A stretch of 50,585 nt of DNA from positions 1 to 50,585 of the forward strand of contig SVSJ01000019.1 in the NCBI GenBank assembly GCA_015064355.1, in the 5' to 3' direction. The notes beneath the pieces are model-generated. The model did no database searches. It had not been told where the DNA came from and worked only from the letters and a program-made list of their open reading frames with translations. The DNA is from Oscillospiraceae bacterium. GTDB taxonomy: Bacteria > Bacillota > Clostridia > Oscillospirales > CAG-272. Of this stretch, positions 1,007-9,002 are shown piece after piece. Numbering within the stretch: position 1 is the stretch's first letter; every line of letters begins with the position of its first letter. Made by a program: the position numbers and the translations under genes.

Positions 1007-1038
1007 GCTGCACCCATTGGCACAGCCTGTTTTGTTTT
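1005..1038. terminator. Bidirectional terminator between convergent genes
   Basis: The arms AGGCTG (1005-1010) and CAGCCT (1023-1028) form a hairpin. It is followed on the plus strand by TGTTTTGTTTTTA, and on the minus strand by ATTTTTCTTCCTTTTTT. It overlaps the stop codon of the DUF421 gene and can end both transcripts. Confidence 0.75.
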
Positions 1039-3647
1039 TATTGGAATTCGGTTTCGCCGTCTGCAAGATACTGCTTGGTTCTTGTTATGACGTGGCTGCC
1101 GTTTTCGCCGGAGATAGCAAGTTTTTCTTCTATCGCCTTTGCGATGTACTCGGGATTGAGATACTTTTCACTGTCAGCAGATGTAACAGCGGTCACTTTC
1201 AGATTTCCGTCGATCACCTCTGCGCGAACGGACTTCACCAGAGTTGTGATATCCGTTTCCTTCTCCCCGCTCTTTGATCTCTTCATCATAATAACAGGGC
1301 GAGTGAACATATCTTCAATCTTTGCACAAAGCTCACAGTCCGCTGAAATGCCGCGGTAGTCGATAACATTTTCCGCCCACTTGATGTCAGACAGCTTGCC
1401 TTTCTGCTCGTATACCCTAAGAATCTCGATACCGTTAGGCATTACAGCCGCCAGCTTTTCGAATATTTCTGCGTTAGGCAGGGATTTCATCATACGCAGG
1501 TCGAGGATTTCCTCTTCCCCACCGCATCCTACTGACAAGGGAGTACCGAACACAAGCTTGGGAATGGGGTTGAAGCCCTCGGTATAGTAAACCGGCAAGC
1601 CGGAGCGAACAACCGCCCGCATCATTGTCTTTGCCAGATCCAGGTGAGAGATATACAGCATGGCACCAAACTTGCGGAATCGAACTCTGATGTGGCGTGC
1701 CGCTTTCACGCTTCCCTTTGGAGGCTTGGGCGGTTTGGGCTTAAGCTCCTTGTCGGAGGTTATTCTTCCTGCGCTGTCAGAGCTGTCGGGATGGCCGGGG
1801 CACCAACGGCAGAATTCTTTGTCAACCAGTTTATTTACGCCGCAGCCGGAGCACTTTTCCTTGCAAGACGGAGTTGCAATAGCCTCCTGCGCCTTGTGTC
1901 TCTCGGAAAGGAGGAAGGTTTTTGTGATACCGGCGGAGATCATATCCCAAGGGAGGATCTCATCGTCGGGAATAGTGCGGTTTGCGTAGAAGGACGGGTC
2001 GATTCCAACTGCTTCGAAAATTTCCATCCACTTGTCGTAGTCGAACCACTCTTCCCAAGCATCAAAGCGAACTCTACGGTGAGCGGCTTCTTCAAGGGCA
2101 AGAGCAAGTCTGCGATCCCCTCGGGCAAAAATTGCCTCAAGGCGCGAAACCTTGGCGTCGTGGTAATTGTATCTGACCTTTCGGTCTCTGATTTTTGAAG
2201 AAAGGAAATCCTGCTTTTCGCAAAGCTCCTCAATGGTGTTCTGTCTTTCCCATTGGAAGGGTGTGTGCGGCTTCGGAATAAAGCACGCCACGGACAATGT
2301 CACTTGAGGCTGACGGGCTTTGTTTCTGTTGGGAGTGCGGTAATACTCGTCGATAACGTGGGTTGCGAGGGTGGAGATTCCCTCGATATCCTCGTAGGTC
2401 TCCCCGGGCAAGCCGTTCATAAAGTAAAGCTTGACCTGGTTCTTTCCTGCAGCATATGCAACGCCTGCCGCGCGAAGGATCTCTTCTTCGGTGATATTTT
2501 TGTTGATTATATCGCGGAGTCTGGGGGTGCCTGCCTCCGGGGCAAAGGTCAGGGTGCTTGAGCGAACCGTAGATATTTTATCCATAAGCTCCTTTGTAAA
2601 GCTGTCCGCGCGCATTGACGGCAGAGACAGGTTTACCATCTTGTCGTCGGTCCAGTCAAGGAGTTTATCTGTCAGCTCGCTGATCTTCGAGTAGTCGCTG
2701 ATAGACAAAGATGACAAGGAGATCTCGCTGTAGCCCGTGTTGTCGATAAGGGATCTTGCGATGCAGTCAAGAGTTTCTGGGGACTTTTCACGAACAGGGC
2801 GGCAAACCATACCTGCCTGGCAGAATCTGCAGCCTCTGATGCATCCGCGGAATACCTCAACAGTTACTCTGTCGTGTACCGTTTCGATATTGGGCATTAC
2901 AGGATTCATAGGAACATAGCACTTGTCGAAATCTTCAACGATTCTCTTCTCAACGATTTTGGGAACACGCTCGTCGGTGGTTTCGATAGCGGCAATAGTA
3001 CCGTCTTCTTTATATATTATATTGTAGAAAGCGGGAACATAGAATCCCTTAAGCTCCGTTGCGACGCGGTAAAGGAACGCGCTCTTTGAATAAGTACCGT
3101 TTTCCTTCATTTCTATATACAGGCGGGCAAATTCGGGCAGTGCTTCCTCACCCTCACCAATGGAGAATACGTCAACAAATTCAGCCATAGGCTCGGGGTT
3201 GTAAGCACAGGGACCGCCTGCAAGAATAACGGGGGAGTCCTCCCCTCTCTGGTCTCGTCTCAGGGGCAGGCCCGCCAAGTCGATCATATTAAGCATAGTG
3301 GAATAGCACAGCTCGTACTGCATGGTGAAAGCGATAACATCAAATTCACCAACTCCGTCTCCACTTTCGTGAGTGAACAAAGGAATGTTTCTCTTGCGCA
3401 TCTCCTCTTCCATATCTACCCACGGAGCGTAAACTCTTTCGCACCAGCAACCGTCAACGCTGTTAAAGCAGTCGCAAAGAATACGCATACCAAGATTGGA
3501 CATACCTATCTCGTACACGTCGGGGAAGCAGAAAGCCACACGCATCTTGACGTCGGCGAGATCCTTGTATACGCTTCCCGTCTCTCCTCCCGTATATCGG
3601 CCGGGCTTCTGAACGCTTGAAATAAAGCTACGAATATCTTCTCTCAT
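1038..3647 (-). CDS. TIGR03960-type radical SAM protein fused to DUF2344 domain
   Basis: An 869-residue protein. The N-terminal part (about 1-230) resembles a B12-binding-like domain. A radical SAM core follows with the cluster motif CxxxCxxC at C269/C273/C276, then a Cys-rich linker near 600. The C-terminal portion (about 650-869, with YISHLDLAKTMMRAVVRSGLPV) is the TIGR03936/DUF2344 domain. In many bacteria the two parts are separate adjacent genes; the fused form is common in Clostridia. The family probably acts in RNA modification or ribosome-related chemistry, but the substrate is unknown. The start is fixed by the conserved VQKPGRYTGGE segment right after it. No Shine-Dalgarno lies at the normal distance: a terminator-like hairpin ends ten bases before the ATG. 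Confidence 0.9.
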   Translation of the reverse strand: MREDIRSFISSVQKPGRYTGGETGSVYKDLADVKMRVAFCFPDVYEIGMSNLGMRILCDCFNSVDGCWCERVYAPWVDMEEEMRKRNIPLFTHESGDGVGEFDVIAFTMQYELCYSTMLNMIDLAGLPLRRDQRGEDSPVILAGGPCAYNPEPMAEFVDVFSIGEGEEALPEFARLYIEMKENGTYSKSAFLYRVATELKGFYVPAFYNIIYKEDGTIAAIETTDERVPKIVEKRIVEDFDKCYVPMNPVMPNIETVHDRVTVEVFRGCIRGCRFCQAGMVCRPVREKSPETLDCIARSLIDNTGYSEISLSSLSISDYSKISELTDKLLDWTDDKMVNLSLPSMRADSFTKELMDKISTVRSSTLTFAPEAGTPRLRDIINKNITEEEILRAAGVAYAAGKNQVKLYFMNGLPGETYEDIEGISTLATHVIDEYYRTPNRNKARQPQVTLSVACFIPKPHTPFQWERQNTIEELCEKQDFLSSKIRDRKVRYNYHDAKVSRLEAIFARGDRRLALALEEAAHRRVRFDAWEEWFDYDKWMEIFEAVGIDPSFYANRTIPDDEILPWDMISAGITKTFLLSERHKAQEAIATPSCKEKCSGCGVNKLVDKEFCRWCPGHPDSSDSAGRITSDKELKPKPPKPPKGSVKAARHIRVRFRKFGAMLYISHLDLAKTMMRAVVRSGLPVYYTEGFNPIPKLVFGTPLSVGCGGEEEILDLRMMKSLPNAEIFEKLAAVMPNGIEILRVYEQKGKLSDIKWAENVIDYRGISADCELCAKIEDMFTRPVIMMKRSKSGEKETDITTLVKSVRAEVIDGNLKVTAVTSADSEKYLNPEYIAKAIEEKLAISGENGSHVITRTKQYLADGETEFQ

Positions 3648-3690
3648 AATAAAATTACGGGAGAATATTTAAGTATCCTCCCGTAGCTCC
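3646..3690 (-). terminator. Terminator hairpin of the acidic membrane protein gene
   Basis: On the minus strand ACGGGAG (3678-3684) pairs with CTCCCGT (3657-3663), followed by AATTTTATTAT, which runs into the ATG of the radical SAM gene. On the plus strand the same hairpin is followed by CTCCTTTTGTTTTTG. It probably ends the upstream gene (3715-6783). Because it abuts the next start codon, it could also act as an attenuator. Confidence 0.65.
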
Positions 3691-3714: not shown

Positions 3715-6700
3715 TTATCTGACGAACATTCTGGCTGAGATCGCCATAGGAATGATCCAGATAAGCTGATAAAGGGCGATGAACAGTGAGTTTACGATTC
3801 CTGTCGCATTCGTAATGAGAAGGAGAGCAAGGATCGCAACGCCGATCATAATTGAAAGTGTACTCATGGCAATATTGGTCTTCTTTGTATGAAGAACCTT
3901 ACCGCAGTAGGAAATAACCTGAAGAAGTGACTTGGGAGACGCGCAGGTAACAAGTCCGCTGTCTACCTTTTCTTCATAGCTGCCCACCTCATCCGCATCA
4001 GCGTAACGAATGATCTTAAGAGGTATACGTCTCAGATTAAGCTTACGGGCGATCATTCTTTCGTTGATATTGGGGTCGAATGTGCGAACACAAACATACA
4101 GGCCGCTGCCGGAATACTGCTTAAGAATAAGGTCAATATCCGCATCCATAACGTACTGGATATACATCTTTGCAACCAACTTGCTTTCGCGGAACATATA
4201 CATAATGGAAAGCTCGTCAGAAAGGTCAACGTCATCTTCAGCCGCGCTCTGGGGGATCTCAAGTCCGCGCTCGGTAAGAGCTTCGCAGCTACCGAAGATA
4301 ATGTTTACACCATCAACCTGAGTTGCAAGGAATCCGTCCTCAACGTCGAAGATCTGAACGTTCTGGGAGTTGCCCATTTCCTTTGTGGCAACCTCGAACA
4401 CATCCTGGAGAGGGCCGCCTGCGTATGCAAATACAGAGGATGCATAGTAGAGCACTCTGTCGATTCTCGCATTGTTGTAGATCCTGATGTTCTGAACCTT
4501 TACGGAATATGAGGGGAACACGTTTTTATCGTCAAAGCTGATGATAGAAGCGTTGGAATATTCTTCAAGAGAGGTCTCACCGATGATCGCGCTGTCATGC
4601 TCTTTTGCGGAGAGATTTGCGCGATAGAAGGGGTAAGAGAATGTAAGGAACACAGACATAGGGATGAGGATCAGCATAGATGAGAAGATCACTTCGCCAA
4701 CCTCGGCGGCACTTGAGCCCTTGAATGCGGCAAAAATACCGATAAGCGCTGCAAGAGCGGCTGTTATGCTAACAAGGAATGTGATAAATGTGTTTGTTGT
4801 AGCATCAGGCTTGGACAGTCTTGCGAAGAAGCCGTCAATAAAGTCGGTCTTTTCTATCTTCATTACATCGCAAATGTCGTCAGCATCAGCAAATGCCTTT
4901 GTTTCGCATTCGGATTCCTCTGCACCAAGACGTCTTACAATATGCTTGGGTCTCTTGTTTGCAATAATGCGGAAGTTCATCATTTCGCGCTTGTGGTTAA
5001 ACATTGCATAAACAAGGGCGAGGAATGCGGAAAGAGCAACTACAAAGTTGAACATCGCAGGCTCTTCGGGGGAAACAACAAGTCTGGGGACGATGGCAGA
5101 ATACAGAATTCCGCAAACGGTAAGAAGTGAAGTAATGGTTTCGGGCTTGGGTGTTCCGTTGAAGAGGCACTTGAAACCGTCAACTATCTGCTCGAGTGCA
5201 CAGAGGCAAGCAAGGAGCATGAGCTGGAGGCTCACCATTGCGTAAACGATGGGATAAACCTGGGGGTCAAATGCACCTGCAAACTGCTGCTCTGTTCCTG
5301 TGAACAGCTTGGTTATTGTTGCCATATTTTCAAAGATCAAAAGCAGGAAGGAAAGTACGCCGCAAGCGCCGAGTCTGATCCAGAGAGAAGTTGTCTTCTT
5401 CTTGTATTCAGCGCGGATCTGGGGGATCTGGGTTTTATCCACAAACTCCGGTCTGTCGAGCTTGAACTTCTTTGATTCACGGTTCTTCTGCTTTTCAACC
5501 AGCTTGTCGCCAAATGCCTTTGCACGGTCAGCCTTATCGTCGTCACCGTTGTCAAGGCCGAAGGCAACCATTAGGTTAATATCTGTGGGGTCGAACTCTT
5601 CGTCAAGAATCTGCTCGATAGCCTTCTGATCTTCTTCGTCGATTTCGTTTTCAGCCACTTCGCTGTCTGTAATTTCTTCGGTTGTATCTTCAGCTACGTC
5701 TTCGCTGAATCCGAAGGTGTCGTCTCCGAACAGCTCTGCATATTCATCAATGGGATTTTCTTCAGCAGATTCTACTGTTTCTACAGCTTCGGTAGCAGCC
5801 GGAGCCTCAGCAGGTTCGTTATCAGCCGCAAAATTCACAAGCTCTACAACATCTGCAAACTCATCAAGCTCATCAAATGTTTCTGCTTCTTCAGCAAATT
5901 CTTCTGTGGTTTCTGCTGTTTCTTCAGCAATTTCTTCGGCGTAAGCCTCGGTGTACTCCTCAGCATACTGTTCGTCGAACTGCTCAGCATTTTCTTCTGC
6001 GAATTCCTCAGCATACTGTTCGTCGAACTGCTCGGCATATTCCCCGACAAGTTCTTCGCCAAACTGTTCAGCGTATTCTTCAGCAAACTCTTCAGCGTAC
6101 TGCTCGTCGTACTCTTCTTCATACTCTTCGCCGTATTCTTCGGAATAATCGTCAGTATATTCCTCTTCGGCTTCGTACAAGTCACGCTCAGCCTGCTTCT
6201 GCTCCTTTTTAGCCTGTTTTGCGGCCTTATTAGCAGCAAGTTTTTCCTTCAGCTTTGCGAAGAATCCCTTTTTCTTGGGTTCGTCCTCAGCAAAAGGATC
6301 TTCGAATATGTCGTTCTCGTTATATTCATAAGAATCATCATACTCGTCTTCGTATTCATCATACGCTTCATCATAAGACTCGTCGTAGGACTGATCGTCC
6401 AACTCTTCGTCGAATGTCTCTTCAGCCGCATCATCCGCCGGATATTCTTCGGCATAAGTTTCCTCAGTTTCCTGGTCCCCCGGGAAAGAGAACACTGAAT
6501 CAAGGGCATCCATCAGCTTTTCGTCATCATCACGATCTTCAGCAGCAGACTCCTTAATGCGCGACAAAACACCGCCGGTAGTAGCTTTCTTTTCTTCTTC
6601 CGGTTCTGTATATTCGGGCATATACTTCTTGAGAAGCTCATTGATGTCAAGCTCACTGTCAGAACTGTCAGCGCTGTTTGTCAGATCAATTTCATCAAAG

Positions 6701-6783
6701 CTCTCGTCAACAAAGTTCTTCTCACCTGTTACGTTAGCTTCTTTTGAAATTTCTTGATTGTTACTATTCATATTGTTAGCCAT
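3715..6783 (-). CDS. Acidic-repeat membrane protein with degenerate P-type ATPase (P1B-like) core
   Basis: A 1022-residue protein if started at the ATG at 6783; a second ATG at 6771 is possible, and longer frames run into rlmB. Residues 1 to about 380 are low complexity, rich in Glu, Asp and Tyr, with a 16-residue tandem repeat around EQFDEQYAEEFAEENA and a basic Lys/Ala patch near 170-200. Hydrophobic segments follow at about 466-487, 510-531, 548-569, 576-596, 664-688, 697-721, 970-991 and 994-1018. This eight-helix spacing, with a big loop between helices 6 and 7, is that of P1B metal ATPases. The loop aligns by eye with their P and N domains. However, the DKTGT site is replaced by FDDKNVF (about 749-755), the CPC motif by IPM, the SEHPL motif by AGGPL, and TGD by TFD. 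The actuator loop is only about 65 residues. It is therefore probably not an ion pump; a structural or regulatory role is a guess. Confidence 0.7.
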   Translation of the reverse strand: MANNMNSNNQEISKEANVTGEKNFVDESFDEIDLTNSADSSDSELDINELLKKYMPEYTEPEEEKKATTGGVLSRIKESAAEDRDDDEKLMDALDSVFSFPGDQETEETYAEEYPADDAAEETFDEELDDQSYDESYDEAYDEYEDEYDDSYEYNENDIFEDPFAEDEPKKKGFFAKLKEKLAANKAAKQAKKEQKQAERDLYEAEEEYTDDYSEEYGEEYEEEYDEQYAEEFAEEYAEQFGEELVGEYAEQFDEQYAEEFAEENAEQFDEQYAEEYTEAYAEEIAEETAETTEEFAEEAETFDELDEFADVVELVNFAADNEPAEAPAATEAVETVESAEENPIDEYAELFGDDTFGFSEDVAEDTTEEITDSEVAENEIDEEDQKAIEQILDEEFDPTDINLMVAFGLDNGDDDKADRAKAFGDKLVEKQKNRESKKFKLDRPEFVDKTQIPQIRAEYKKKTTSLWIRLGACGVLSFLLLIFENMATITKLFTGTEQQFAGAFDPQVYPIVYAMVSLQLMLLACLCALEQIVDGFKCLFNGTPKPETITSLLTVCGILYSAIVPRLVVSPEEPAMFNFVVALSAFLALVYAMFNHKREMMNFRIIANKRPKHIVRRLGAEESECETKAFADADDICDVMKIEKTDFIDGFFARLSKPDATTNTFITFLVSITAALAALIGIFAAFKGSSAAEVGEVIFSSMLILIPMSVFLTFSYPFYRANLSAKEHDSAIIGETSLEEYSNASIISFDDKNVFPSYSVKVQNIRIYNNARIDRVLYYASSVFAYAGGPLQDVFEVATKEMGNSQNVQIFDVEDGFLATQVDGVNIIFGSCEALTERGLEIPQSAAEDDVDLSDELSIMYMFRESKLVAKMYIQYVMDADIDLILKQYSGSGLYVCVRTFDPNINERMIARKLNLRRIPLKIIRYADADEVGSYEEKVDSGLVTCASPKSLLQVISYCGKVLHTKKTNIAMSTLSIMIGVAILALLLITNATGIVNSLFIALYQLIWIIPMAISARMFVR
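5953..6055 (-). repeat. 48-bp tandem repeat encoding the acidic 16-residue unit
   Basis: The block starting at TCCTCAGCATACTG (5957) recurs 48 bases later at 6005, nearly identical for about 35 bases. More diverged units lie on either side (5940-6130). Each unit encodes an EQFDEQYAEE-type peptide. It is an in-frame coding repeat inside the acidic membrane protein gene. Confidence 0.8.
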
Positions 6784-6878: not shown

Positions 6879-7703
6879 TTAACCCAGCTTCTGCTTTCTT
6901 GCGGCGTGGCACAAGAGAACTGATGCCGCAGTTGATACGTTCAGAGAATTCACTCGTCCGAACATAGGAATTGATACGGTAAAGTCGCATCTTTCCCTAA
7001 CCAGTCGGCTCACACCGCTGTCTTCTCCACCGAGAACGATGGCACAGGGGATATTCCAGTCAGCTTCGTAGAAGTCTACACCGTCAGCCTCGGCTGCAAA
7101 TGTCCAGACTCCGTTTTCCTTCAGCTTTTCAATAGTTTGAGCAATATTTCCAACTTTCGCAACAGCCATATGAAGAATAGCTCCGGCAGAAGCCTTTGAC
7201 ACGGCCGGAGTAAGTCCGCAAGCGCGTCTTTCGGGAATGATCACACCGTGAGCTCCGGCACATTCTGCGCAACGGATCACCGCACCAAGATTGTGGGGAT
7301 CTTCGATTCCGTCGCAAACCACAATGAGAGGTTTCTCTCCACGGTCGCGGGCAATCTCCAAAATCTCTTCAACTGTGGAGTAGTGCTTTTCAGCCACCAT
7401 TGCAGCGACGCCCTGGTGATTCTCACCTCTTGCCAGTCTGTCAAGAGACTCGTTAGTGGAGCTGACTATGGGAACACCGGCCTTTTTCGCTTCAGCGATA
7501 ATGACCTGCACGGATCCTTCCTTGCCTGACACAAGGATCTTGTCAACGGGAGCGCCCGATCTGACAAGCTCAAGAACAGCGTTTCTTCCTACAACAATAT
7601 TGGAAGGAAGCTCCTCGCCTGATCTTCTGGGAGGTCTGTCTCCCCTGCTCTTGCCGCCGCGGCCACCGTCACCGCCATATTTTCTATTATATTTCTTTTC
7701 CAT
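6879..7703 (-). CDS. rlmB: 23S rRNA 2'-O-ribose methyltransferase RlmB (TrmH/SpoU family)
   Basis: A 274-residue SPOUT methyltransferase. After a basic Gly/Arg-rich tail (1-33) there is a substrate-binding domain (about 34-110) beginning VVGRNAVLELVRSG. The trefoil-knot catalytic domain follows with the family motifs DPHNLGAVIRCAECAG (motif 1), VLGGEDSGVSRLV (motif 2) and SLNVSTAASVLL (motif 3). The family methylates the ribose of G2251 (E. coli numbering) in 23S rRNA using S-adenosylmethionine. Other TrmH-family targets cannot be excluded from sequence. The start is at MEKKYNRK. It has its own promoter upstream. Confidence 0.9.
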   Translation of the reverse strand: MEKKYNRKYGGDGGRGGKSRGDRPPRRSGEELPSNIVVGRNAVLELVRSGAPVDKILVSGKEGSVQVIIAEAKKAGVPIVSSTNESLDRLARGENHQGVAAMVAEKHYSTVEEILEIARDRGEKPLIVVCDGIEDPHNLGAVIRCAECAGAHGVIIPERRACGLTPAVSKASAGAILHMAVAKVGNIAQTIEKLKENGVWTFAAEADGVDFYEADWNIPCAIVLGGEDSGVSRLVRERCDFTVSIPMFGRVNSLNVSTAASVLLCHAARKQKLG

Positions 7704-7756: not shown

Positions 7757-7785
7757 ATTATACCACATTTTTTTCGTTTTGTATA
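7757..7785 (-). promoter_or_regulatory. Sigma-A promoter of rlmB
   Basis: On the minus strand a -35-like TATACA (7780-7785), a 17-base spacer and a perfect TATAAT (7757-7762), about 55 bases upstream of the rlmB start. Confidence 0.65.
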
Positions 7786-7944: not shown

Positions 7945-8220
7945 TTACTGCTGTTTCATTGCAGCAAAGCATTCGCTGCAATATACGGGTCTGTCGTTGC
8001 TGGGCTGGAAAGGAACCTTAGCTTCCTTACCACAGTTAGCGCAAGTAGTTGTGAACATTTCTCTCTGTTCGCGAGTAGCGTTCTTTCTCTTGTCACGGCA
8101 TTCCTTGCATCTCTGGGGTTCGTTCTGGAAGCCCTTTTCTGCATAGAATTCCTGTTCGCCTGCTGTGAATACGAAATCATTGCCGCATTCCTTGCACTTT
8201 AAGGTCTTGTCCTCGTACAT
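7945..8220 (-). CDS. Small zinc-ribbon protein (CxxC-x17-CxxC type)
   Basis: A 91-residue protein with two zinc-ribbon units. The first pairs CKEC near residue 9 with CKEC near 38; the second pairs CANC near 60 with CSEC near 80. The N-terminus MYEDKTLKCKECGNDFVFT and the block FYAEKGFQNEPQRCKECR are characteristic of the bacterial probable zinc-binding domain family (zf-trcl type). Such proteins are common in Clostridia and Chloroflexi and have no assigned role; binding nucleic acid is an inference from the fold. GAGGAAAAAAAG precedes the ATG. Confidence 0.88.
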   Translation of the reverse strand: MYEDKTLKCKECGNDFVFTAGEQEFYAEKGFQNEPQRCKECRDKRKNATREQREMFTTTCANCGKEAKVPFQPSNDRPVYCSECFAAMKQQ

Positions 8221-8355: not shown

Positions 8356-8961
8356 TTACTGATTCTTAAGTAGTCCTCTGATCTTAACCTTCACTCGATA
8401 TAAAGCATTACTCACCGACTTTTCTTCTTTTCCAAGCTGATGAGCGATTTCGTTTGTGGACTTACCTATAACGTAGCAATCGAATATTTTGTTTTCGTAT
8501 TCTGACAAACTACTTTTTATTCGACTTACAAGCTCTCCTGCGCTTTCAGAGGACACCAGCATAAACAGTGGATCCCCCTCCGACGTGCGGGTCGTGCTTG
8601 CAGATTTCACTTTATTGTTGGCTGCGTCGCGTTTTCTCTTTTCACTCCGATATTTTCTCAGGGCAGATATCAGCGCGTTGTTGATGCAGATTTTTGCATA
8701 CAAGCCAAAGCTGACGTCCTTTCCCTTGCCGGACTCATCCGGGGAGTAGGTAGTTGCCGCACGGTACAGCGCCAAGGCTGCGTATTGCTCCAGATCCTCC
8801 GGAGAACACAGACCATTCCAGTCGCCGTCTGCCATATCAAATGATCCCGAGAAGCGTCTCACCGCTCCGTCAACAACCCCTTTATATTGCAAAAGCAACT
8901 GCGCGAATGCTCCCTCGTCGCCCTGCTTAATTGATTCAATCAGATGTAGTAAATCGTTCAC
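8356..8961 (-). CDS. Sigma-70 family RNA polymerase sigma factor (SigH-like)
   Basis: A sigma factor of 201 residues from a GTG at 8961; an earlier in-frame GTG at 8973 overlaps the GGAG ribosome binding site and is less likely. Region 2 lies in roughly the first 110 residues (QYKGVVDGAVRRFSG, EDLEQYAALALYRAATTY, FGLYAKICINNALISALRKYRSEKR). Region 4 lies at the C-terminus (LSEYENKIFDCYVIGKSTNEIAHQLGKEEKSVSNALYRVKVKIRGLL). The pattern resembles Bacillus SigH, which directs early sporulation and competence genes. Whether it is the true SigH here is uncertain. It is transcribed from its own consensus promoter. Confidence 0.82.
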   Translation of the reverse strand: MNDLLHLIESIKQGDEGAFAQLLLQYKGVVDGAVRRFSGSFDMADGDWNGLCSPEDLEQYAALALYRAATTYSPDESGKGKDVSFGLYAKICINNALISALRKYRSEKRKRDAANNKVKSASTTRTSEGDPLFMLVSSESAGELVSRIKSSLSEYENKIFDCYVIGKSTNEIAHQLGKEEKSVSNALYRVKVKIRGLLKNQ

Positions 8962-9002
8962 AGGTCGCAGCACTCCAAAATAATTATATTACGCTAAATA
9001 AT

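Follow-up and report, generated by a model that had tools for sequence, protein, structure and literature searches.

A P1B-type ATPase relative without pump motifs is a conserved membrane protein of the Oscillospirales

Introduction

Why would a genome keep an open gene for a metal pump that has lost the parts needed for pumping? The question is raised by a minus-strand gene in a 50,585-nucleotide stretch (the window; contig SVSJ01000019.1, assembly GCA_015064355.1) from an Oscillospiraceae bacterium of the order Oscillospirales, hereafter the order. The gene encodes a protein of 1022 residues, here termed the pseudo-pump, which an earlier sequence-only reading had taken for an inactive P1B-type ATPase scaffold behind an acidic tail. 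Few membrane machines have been studied as thoroughly as the P-type ATPases, whose cycle requires the TGE and GDGxND motifs. No inactive P-type ATPase family is named in the best-ranked results of a literature search or in passages of the review PMC10654040. We put at roughly 0.6 the probability of the following explanation: a CopA-like P1B-ATPase settled behind rlmB, a gene for an rRNA methyltransferase, lost its pump motifs and has been kept as a core membrane scaffold or receptor.

Homology and fold

The frame runs open from an ATG at 6783 to a stop at 3715, as had been claimed for this pump-like gene. The longest ATG frame begins at 6990; the start at 6783 is favoured by the N-terminus of a close relative (L031), which by eye resembles the window protein from there. 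Pfam returned no match to the window protein at E≤10 and scattered weak matches over 82 members of its family, and TIGR01525, the NCBIfam model of the P1B subfamily, matched it at E 6.9e-5 (21.9 bits, cut-off 346). In a comparison of the family, NCBIfam pump models matched weakly, with 24.4 bits for the window protein (cut-off 346) and 4.6e-17 as the best E of any member. When residues 460-1022 were compared by phmmer with solved structures, one distinct sequence appeared at E≤10, the copper ATPase 3rfu (E 3.8e-4). The structural model has the P and N domains, matches CopA and shows eight long helices with a short loop past the fourth and the long P/N loop past the sixth, which is the P1B topology that had been proposed from eight hydrophobic segments. 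Moreover, hhalign upheld the by-eye placement of IIGETSLEEY, AGGPL and VDGVNIIFG on their pump counterparts. Sequence and fold together place the protein in the P-type ATPase superfamily over the membrane, P and N domains.

From the CopA-like P1B copper ATPases (LpCopA, PDB 3rfu/4bbj) the pseudo-pump differs by the absence of DKTGT, TGE, GDGxND, HP and CPC, by an actuator domain cut to about 51 residues and, in most members, by a long acidic N-terminal tail. KdpB, ZntA, MgtA and Na,K-ATPase are alike in general fold but matched more weakly, with scores below those of CopA, and unlike the pseudo-pump they are active pumps. In a tree built from 82 family members and 15 genuine pumps (four of 19 genuine ones omitted), the family grouped together with weak support (0.593), its branch being 1.31 substitutions per site long; the genuine pumps did not form one group under the rooting used.

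Three other identities were considered and rejected. An ordinary P1B pump misread by eye was ruled out by the alignments. Viral relatives were sought by fold, and all five matches at E≤0.001 are large-virus proteins with P-type or magnesium ATPase annotations. For a fused extra domain, the window protein gave no Pfam match and four long tails of other members were read by eye.

Loss of catalytic and metal-site motifs

Motifs were counted over 83 aligned rows, comprising the window, 13 close kin from metagenome-assembled genomes (titled Oscillospiraceae bacterium, Clostridia bacterium or uncultured Ruminococcus) and 69 others; the set drew on 60 regions from order genomes, and residue numbers are those of the window protein. 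The DKTGT motif, sought as D[KT][TS]G[TS], occurs in 0/83 rows. It is present in 19/19 ordinary-pump loci (18 matches from outside the order and the window genome's own pump), all of which carry GDGxND too. Close and distant homologues alike lack DKTGT, therefore the degenerate motifs are not those of a single decaying copy. GDGxND, the hinge and Mg loop, whose loss the sequence-only reading had not mentioned, is also found in none of the rows, and in the window protein its segment has no counterpart. The actuator is far too short, as had been said (median 51 residues, range 38-68); its TGE, sought as TGES only, gave one string in 83 rows, near residue 495 and outside the actuator, and the TGE segment of pumps lands in a gapped stretch of the hhalign alignment. 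SEHPL reads GGPL in the window, and the six most frequent residues in column 790 of the 83 rows do not include His. At the metal site, where CPC was rightly read as IPM, no row has [CST]P[CHS] (CPC, SPC, CPH or TPC type).

Two of the proposed motif changes stand in part. DKTGT had been read as turned into FDDKNVF; KTGT is indeed gone, but the first Asp (D751) still fills the phospho-Asp column. The phospho-Asp strand ends at residue 751 in the model, and hhalign pairs D752 with the Lys of DKTGT. Residue 751 is Asp in 32/83 rows, therefore the window keeps an Asp in a slot that the family does not conserve. D752 is found in 69 rows, Asp at either position in 80, D or E at 754 in 62, F or Y at 756 in 82 and P757 in 72. 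Three members (L080, L082 and L085) have no Asp at 751 or 752, which suggests that the site is drifting in some lineages. Similarly, TGD has become TFD and TGD[NS] occurs in 0/83 rows, but the Thr (60/83) and the Asp (D903, 83/83) are kept. In the N domain G831 is invariant and column 818 is Gly in 68/83 rows, the Gly lying, by eye, apparently one residue off in the window's group; Y877 (79/83) and W1009 (78/83) are further conserved residues.

A highly divergent pump still driven by ATP would fit the kept fold, the Asp at 751 or 752 and the N-domain glycines, but we find it scarcely credible with TGE, GDGxND, the SEHP His and CPC lost together. Because the catalytic and metal motifs are lost, the pseudo-pump probably does not pump and does not run the P-type cycle of ATP hydrolysis, and the profile match, the CopA-like fold and the missing DKTGT support the inactive P1B-type scaffold proposed earlier. 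HAD phosphatases carry a DxD motif, which D752 and the acidic residue at 754 resemble, and the P domain might host a novel site for phosphatase or phosphotransferase chemistry, made of xDx[DE]hFP and invariant D903. The Pfam HAD model gives weak matches to three of 82 members (best E 6.6e-5). Such a re-purposed enzyme is nevertheless quite unlikely, since the phospho-Asp column is mostly not Asp, D752 aligns with a Lys, and neither the motif III Lys nor the motif IV acidic residues are found (no Lys column exceeds 40% past residue 906, and the motif IV segment is missing).

The membrane part bears on a further possibility, passive or secondary transport, in which the bundle would move metal, lipid or some other substrate with no need for ATP and the P/N head would be a regulatory gate. 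The eight-helix P1B bundle is kept in the model, as are Pro 708 (72/83) and Pro 718 (54/69), in a region that is unwound in real pumps. Cys 960 (3904-3906, minus strand), where the seventh helix begins, is shared by 34 of the 69 more distant rows and might belong to a Cys-based site. We still consider this unlikely: the metal-site motif is absent throughout, and besides Cys 960 no Cys or His column reaches 40% in those 69 rows.

Retention across the order

A first sample of 147 order genomes, searched with residues 460-1022, gave 134 with matches at E≤0.001, the weaker of which include genuine pumps. The profile of an 82-row alignment (A1, the split row L067 left out) matched 275/295 order genomes at E≤1e-45, including 219/225 good genomes and 144/149 genera. 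Each matching genome has one match, except two (G084 and G858), copy number being approximate with at most four candidates scored per genome. Among 291 genomes sampled across the class, the best scores of those from the order (12) were 307-678 bits, and the best of all others was 138 bits (profile positions 214-498). A phylum sample of 299 gave three matches at E≤1e-45, all from the order, and 0/296 outside it.

Close pairs show purifying selection, with dN/dS of 0.06-0.13 (as dN/dS: window and L031, 0.116/1.41; L042 and L041, 0.066/0.51; L038 and L040, 0.078/0.65; L035 and L039, 0.047/0.82; L035 and L037, 0.069/0.99); of three further pairs, two had a dS exceeding 2 and one gave no computable dS. 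Selection and retention despite lost motifs are those of a conserved pseudoenzyme, and a decaying single copy is ruled out by distribution, open frames and dN/dS. Nearly every sampled order genome keeps the gene without the pump parts; therefore the former pump appears to have turned into something else.

Genuine pumps are also widespread, with TIGR01525 matches at E≤1e-60 in 147/148 sampled order genomes, and the pseudo-pump could be a regulatory partner of such a P1B pump in a mixed complex. We hold this to be improbable. One genome (G726, 97% complete) has a pseudo-pump (E 1.1e-109) and no TIGR01525 match at E≤1e-60, therefore an obligate partnership is unlikely. Moreover, ordinary pumps are common outside the order, where there is no pseudo-pump, and the fixed neighbour is rlmB, neighbours not having been screened individually for pump genes.

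A fixed place behind rlmB

The frame directly upstream encodes a SpoU-family methyltransferase, which we take to be RlmB. At 73/74 loci an rlmB-like frame on the same strand precedes the family gene by no more than 400 bases; the exception is the split gene L067, whose rlmB is 1106 bases ahead of the C-terminal piece. For 56 loci rlmB had been taken as the upstream frame (L067 excluded, because the frame in its row is the front part of the gene itself). Most of these have a gap of 3-133 bases, and one has 182; four loci overlap by 4 bases, and five overlap by 62-115 bases owing to longest frames. In the window, rlmB is preceded by a promoter-like site and the pseudo-pump gene is followed by a strong hairpin (Table 1), which suggests that the two may form a two-gene unit. 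Promoter-like sites number 15 in the region (7.7 expected) and terminator-like hairpins 11 (5.5 expected), about double the counts in shuffled sequence.

In other Clostridia the same anchor, rlmB, appears to be followed by other genes. Of 28 rlmB loci from other orders, 26 have a downstream frame: six YacP/NYN-like, nine sigma-factor-like and 11 other or doubtful by eye. None of the 26 looks family-like by eye, a soft negative because the same procedure missed the window's own pseudo-pump, whose longest frame overlaps rlmB. The absence of the family outside the order therefore rests on the class-wide and phylum samples and not on the rlmB loci.

The acidic N-terminal tail

Family tails, measured to residue 465 from longest-frame starts (L067 counted as 0), are 17 to 917 residues long with a median of 24% Asp/Glu. 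An acidic N-tail is thus a common feature of the family, and the Glu/Tyr repeat is local: the Glu/Asp/Tyr-rich front described earlier does contain a real repeat, in tandem arrays at 5955-6141, but a Tyr/Phe share of 0.11 is found only in the window and L031 (tails above 20 residues; next is L024, 0.09). Metal binding by the tail, raised as a possibility earlier, is conjecture, and so is any role of the Glu/Tyr repeat itself. A short motif (type FSLDDILAEF) occurs in 37/80 tails of at least 60 residues, against a mean of 0.2 and a maximum of 2 in 200 shuffles, although the tails are related and the shuffle therefore overstates independence. The motif was also considered as a signal common to other proteins, and this was rejected: a stricter pattern matched 1/2749 other six-frame ORFs (≥100 residues) from the locus sets, and that one belongs to the family itself, being the first part of the split gene L067.

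Proposed function

In our favoured explanation, a CopA-like P1B-ATPase would have come to sit behind rlmB in the order's ancestor, lost its actuator loop, phosphorylation chemistry, Mg-binding GDGxND loop and metal site, and been retained as a core membrane protein that acts as scaffold or receptor. The non-cycling P/N head may keep a modified ligand site formed by D752, the acidic residue at 754, invariant D903 and glycines G818 and G831. The flexible acidic tail could dock a cytosolic partner through its short helix-like motif in members that have it, and ligand binding at the head would, in place of driving transport, be passed on as a signal where the P domain joins the membrane helices. 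iRhoms are membrane pseudoenzymes kept as binding scaffolds; they share with the pseudo-pump the selective retention of an inactive membrane-enzyme copy, but their fold is unrelated.

Several points weigh against this explanation. A scaffold role is the default guess for pseudoenzymes, and partner, ligand and phenotype are all putative. With Asp in or next to the slot in 80/83 rows and the Thr and Asp of TGD mostly kept, some altered phosphate or nucleotide chemistry may persist. Neither tail motif is found in 38/80 tails, and two members (L089, 20 residues; L095, 17 residues; genomes G109 and G009, family f10) are nearly tail-less; therefore tail docking is not universal, and in these two the N-tail is dispensable. 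Finally, 20/295 order genomes (6/225 good ones) have no match, assembly gaps aside, therefore the pseudo-pump is not strictly indispensable.

We lean slightly towards a broader proposal: that one branch of the P-type ATPase superfamily does not pump and goes back to a single domestication of a P1B pump, behind rlmB, into a core membrane protein of the order. It would have its own ligand site in place of the former ATP chemistry and, in many of its members, a docking motif near the N-terminus. It may link the membrane to RlmB or ribosome maturation, and it probably shares a transcription unit with rlmB. A dead pump in nearly every sampled order genome would mean that the scaffold is separable from transport, and the family offers a natural comparison for the role of each motif. 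It also marks an uncharacterised core gene hardly visible to family libraries (Pfam, NCBIfam).

Other features of the locus

Table 1. Coordinates of the pseudo-pump gene, its parts and its surroundings in the window.
Feature	Position	Strand	Basis or remark
Pseudo-P1B-ATPase gene, 1022 residues	3715..6783	-	ORF; homology to P1B-ATPases; model of residues 440-1022
Acidic N-terminal tail, residues 1-445, ahead of first long helix	5449..6783	-	Family tail lengths and composition
Tail motif [FYLVI]x[LIVM][DENS][DESANT][ILM][ILM]x[DEQK][FYVLA], here LDINELLKKY, residues 45-54	6622..6651	-	
Imperfect 12/24/36/48-base tandem repeats encoding Glu/Tyr/Phe/Ala-rich stretch	5955..6141	-	TRF
DPTDINLMVAF, a second tail motif found mainly in close kin, residues 398-408	5560..5592	-	16/80 tails, 0 in 200 shuffles
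Actuator remnant lacking the TGE loop, residues 609-659	4807..4959	-	Model and hhalign; 83 rows
Former CPC metal site, IPM, residues 707-709	4657..4665	-	Only Pro (P708) kept
Former DKTGT site, FDDKNVFP, residues 750-757; family form xDx[DE]hFP	4513..4536	-	hhalign placement and column counts
N domain, nucleotide-binding type, residues 757-878	4150..4515	-	Two glycines kept; SEHPL to GGPL
Former TGDN motif, TFDPN, residues 901-905	4069..4083	-	Asp invariant; N905 74/83
Site of missing GDGxND segment, residues 934-942	3958..3984	-	hhalign gap
Terminator-like hairpin directly after pseudo-pump gene, 12 pairs, T-rich tail	3656..3685	-	Consensus scan only
rlmB-like SpoU-family rRNA 2'-O-methyltransferase, directly upstream	6879..7703	-	Pfam PF00588/PF08032
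Sigma-70-like promoter TATACA-17-TATAAT, TG before second hexamer, ahead of rlmB	7757..7785	-	Consensus scan only
Radical SAM protein fused to DUF2344, next gene downstream	1038-3647	-	
Two-zinc-finger protein (zf_Tbcl), upstream of rlmB	7945-8220	-	
Protein with weak sigma-70 region 2 / GerE matches, upstream of rlmB	8356-8973	-	

The family gene L067:3665-6061 (genome G022) is split by a TGA, and the members in G077 and G844 each have one in-frame TGA over the profile range. The Radical SAM/DUF2344 cluster is found at 16/69 loci, with 15 members at position +1, and is a less stable neighbour than rlmB.
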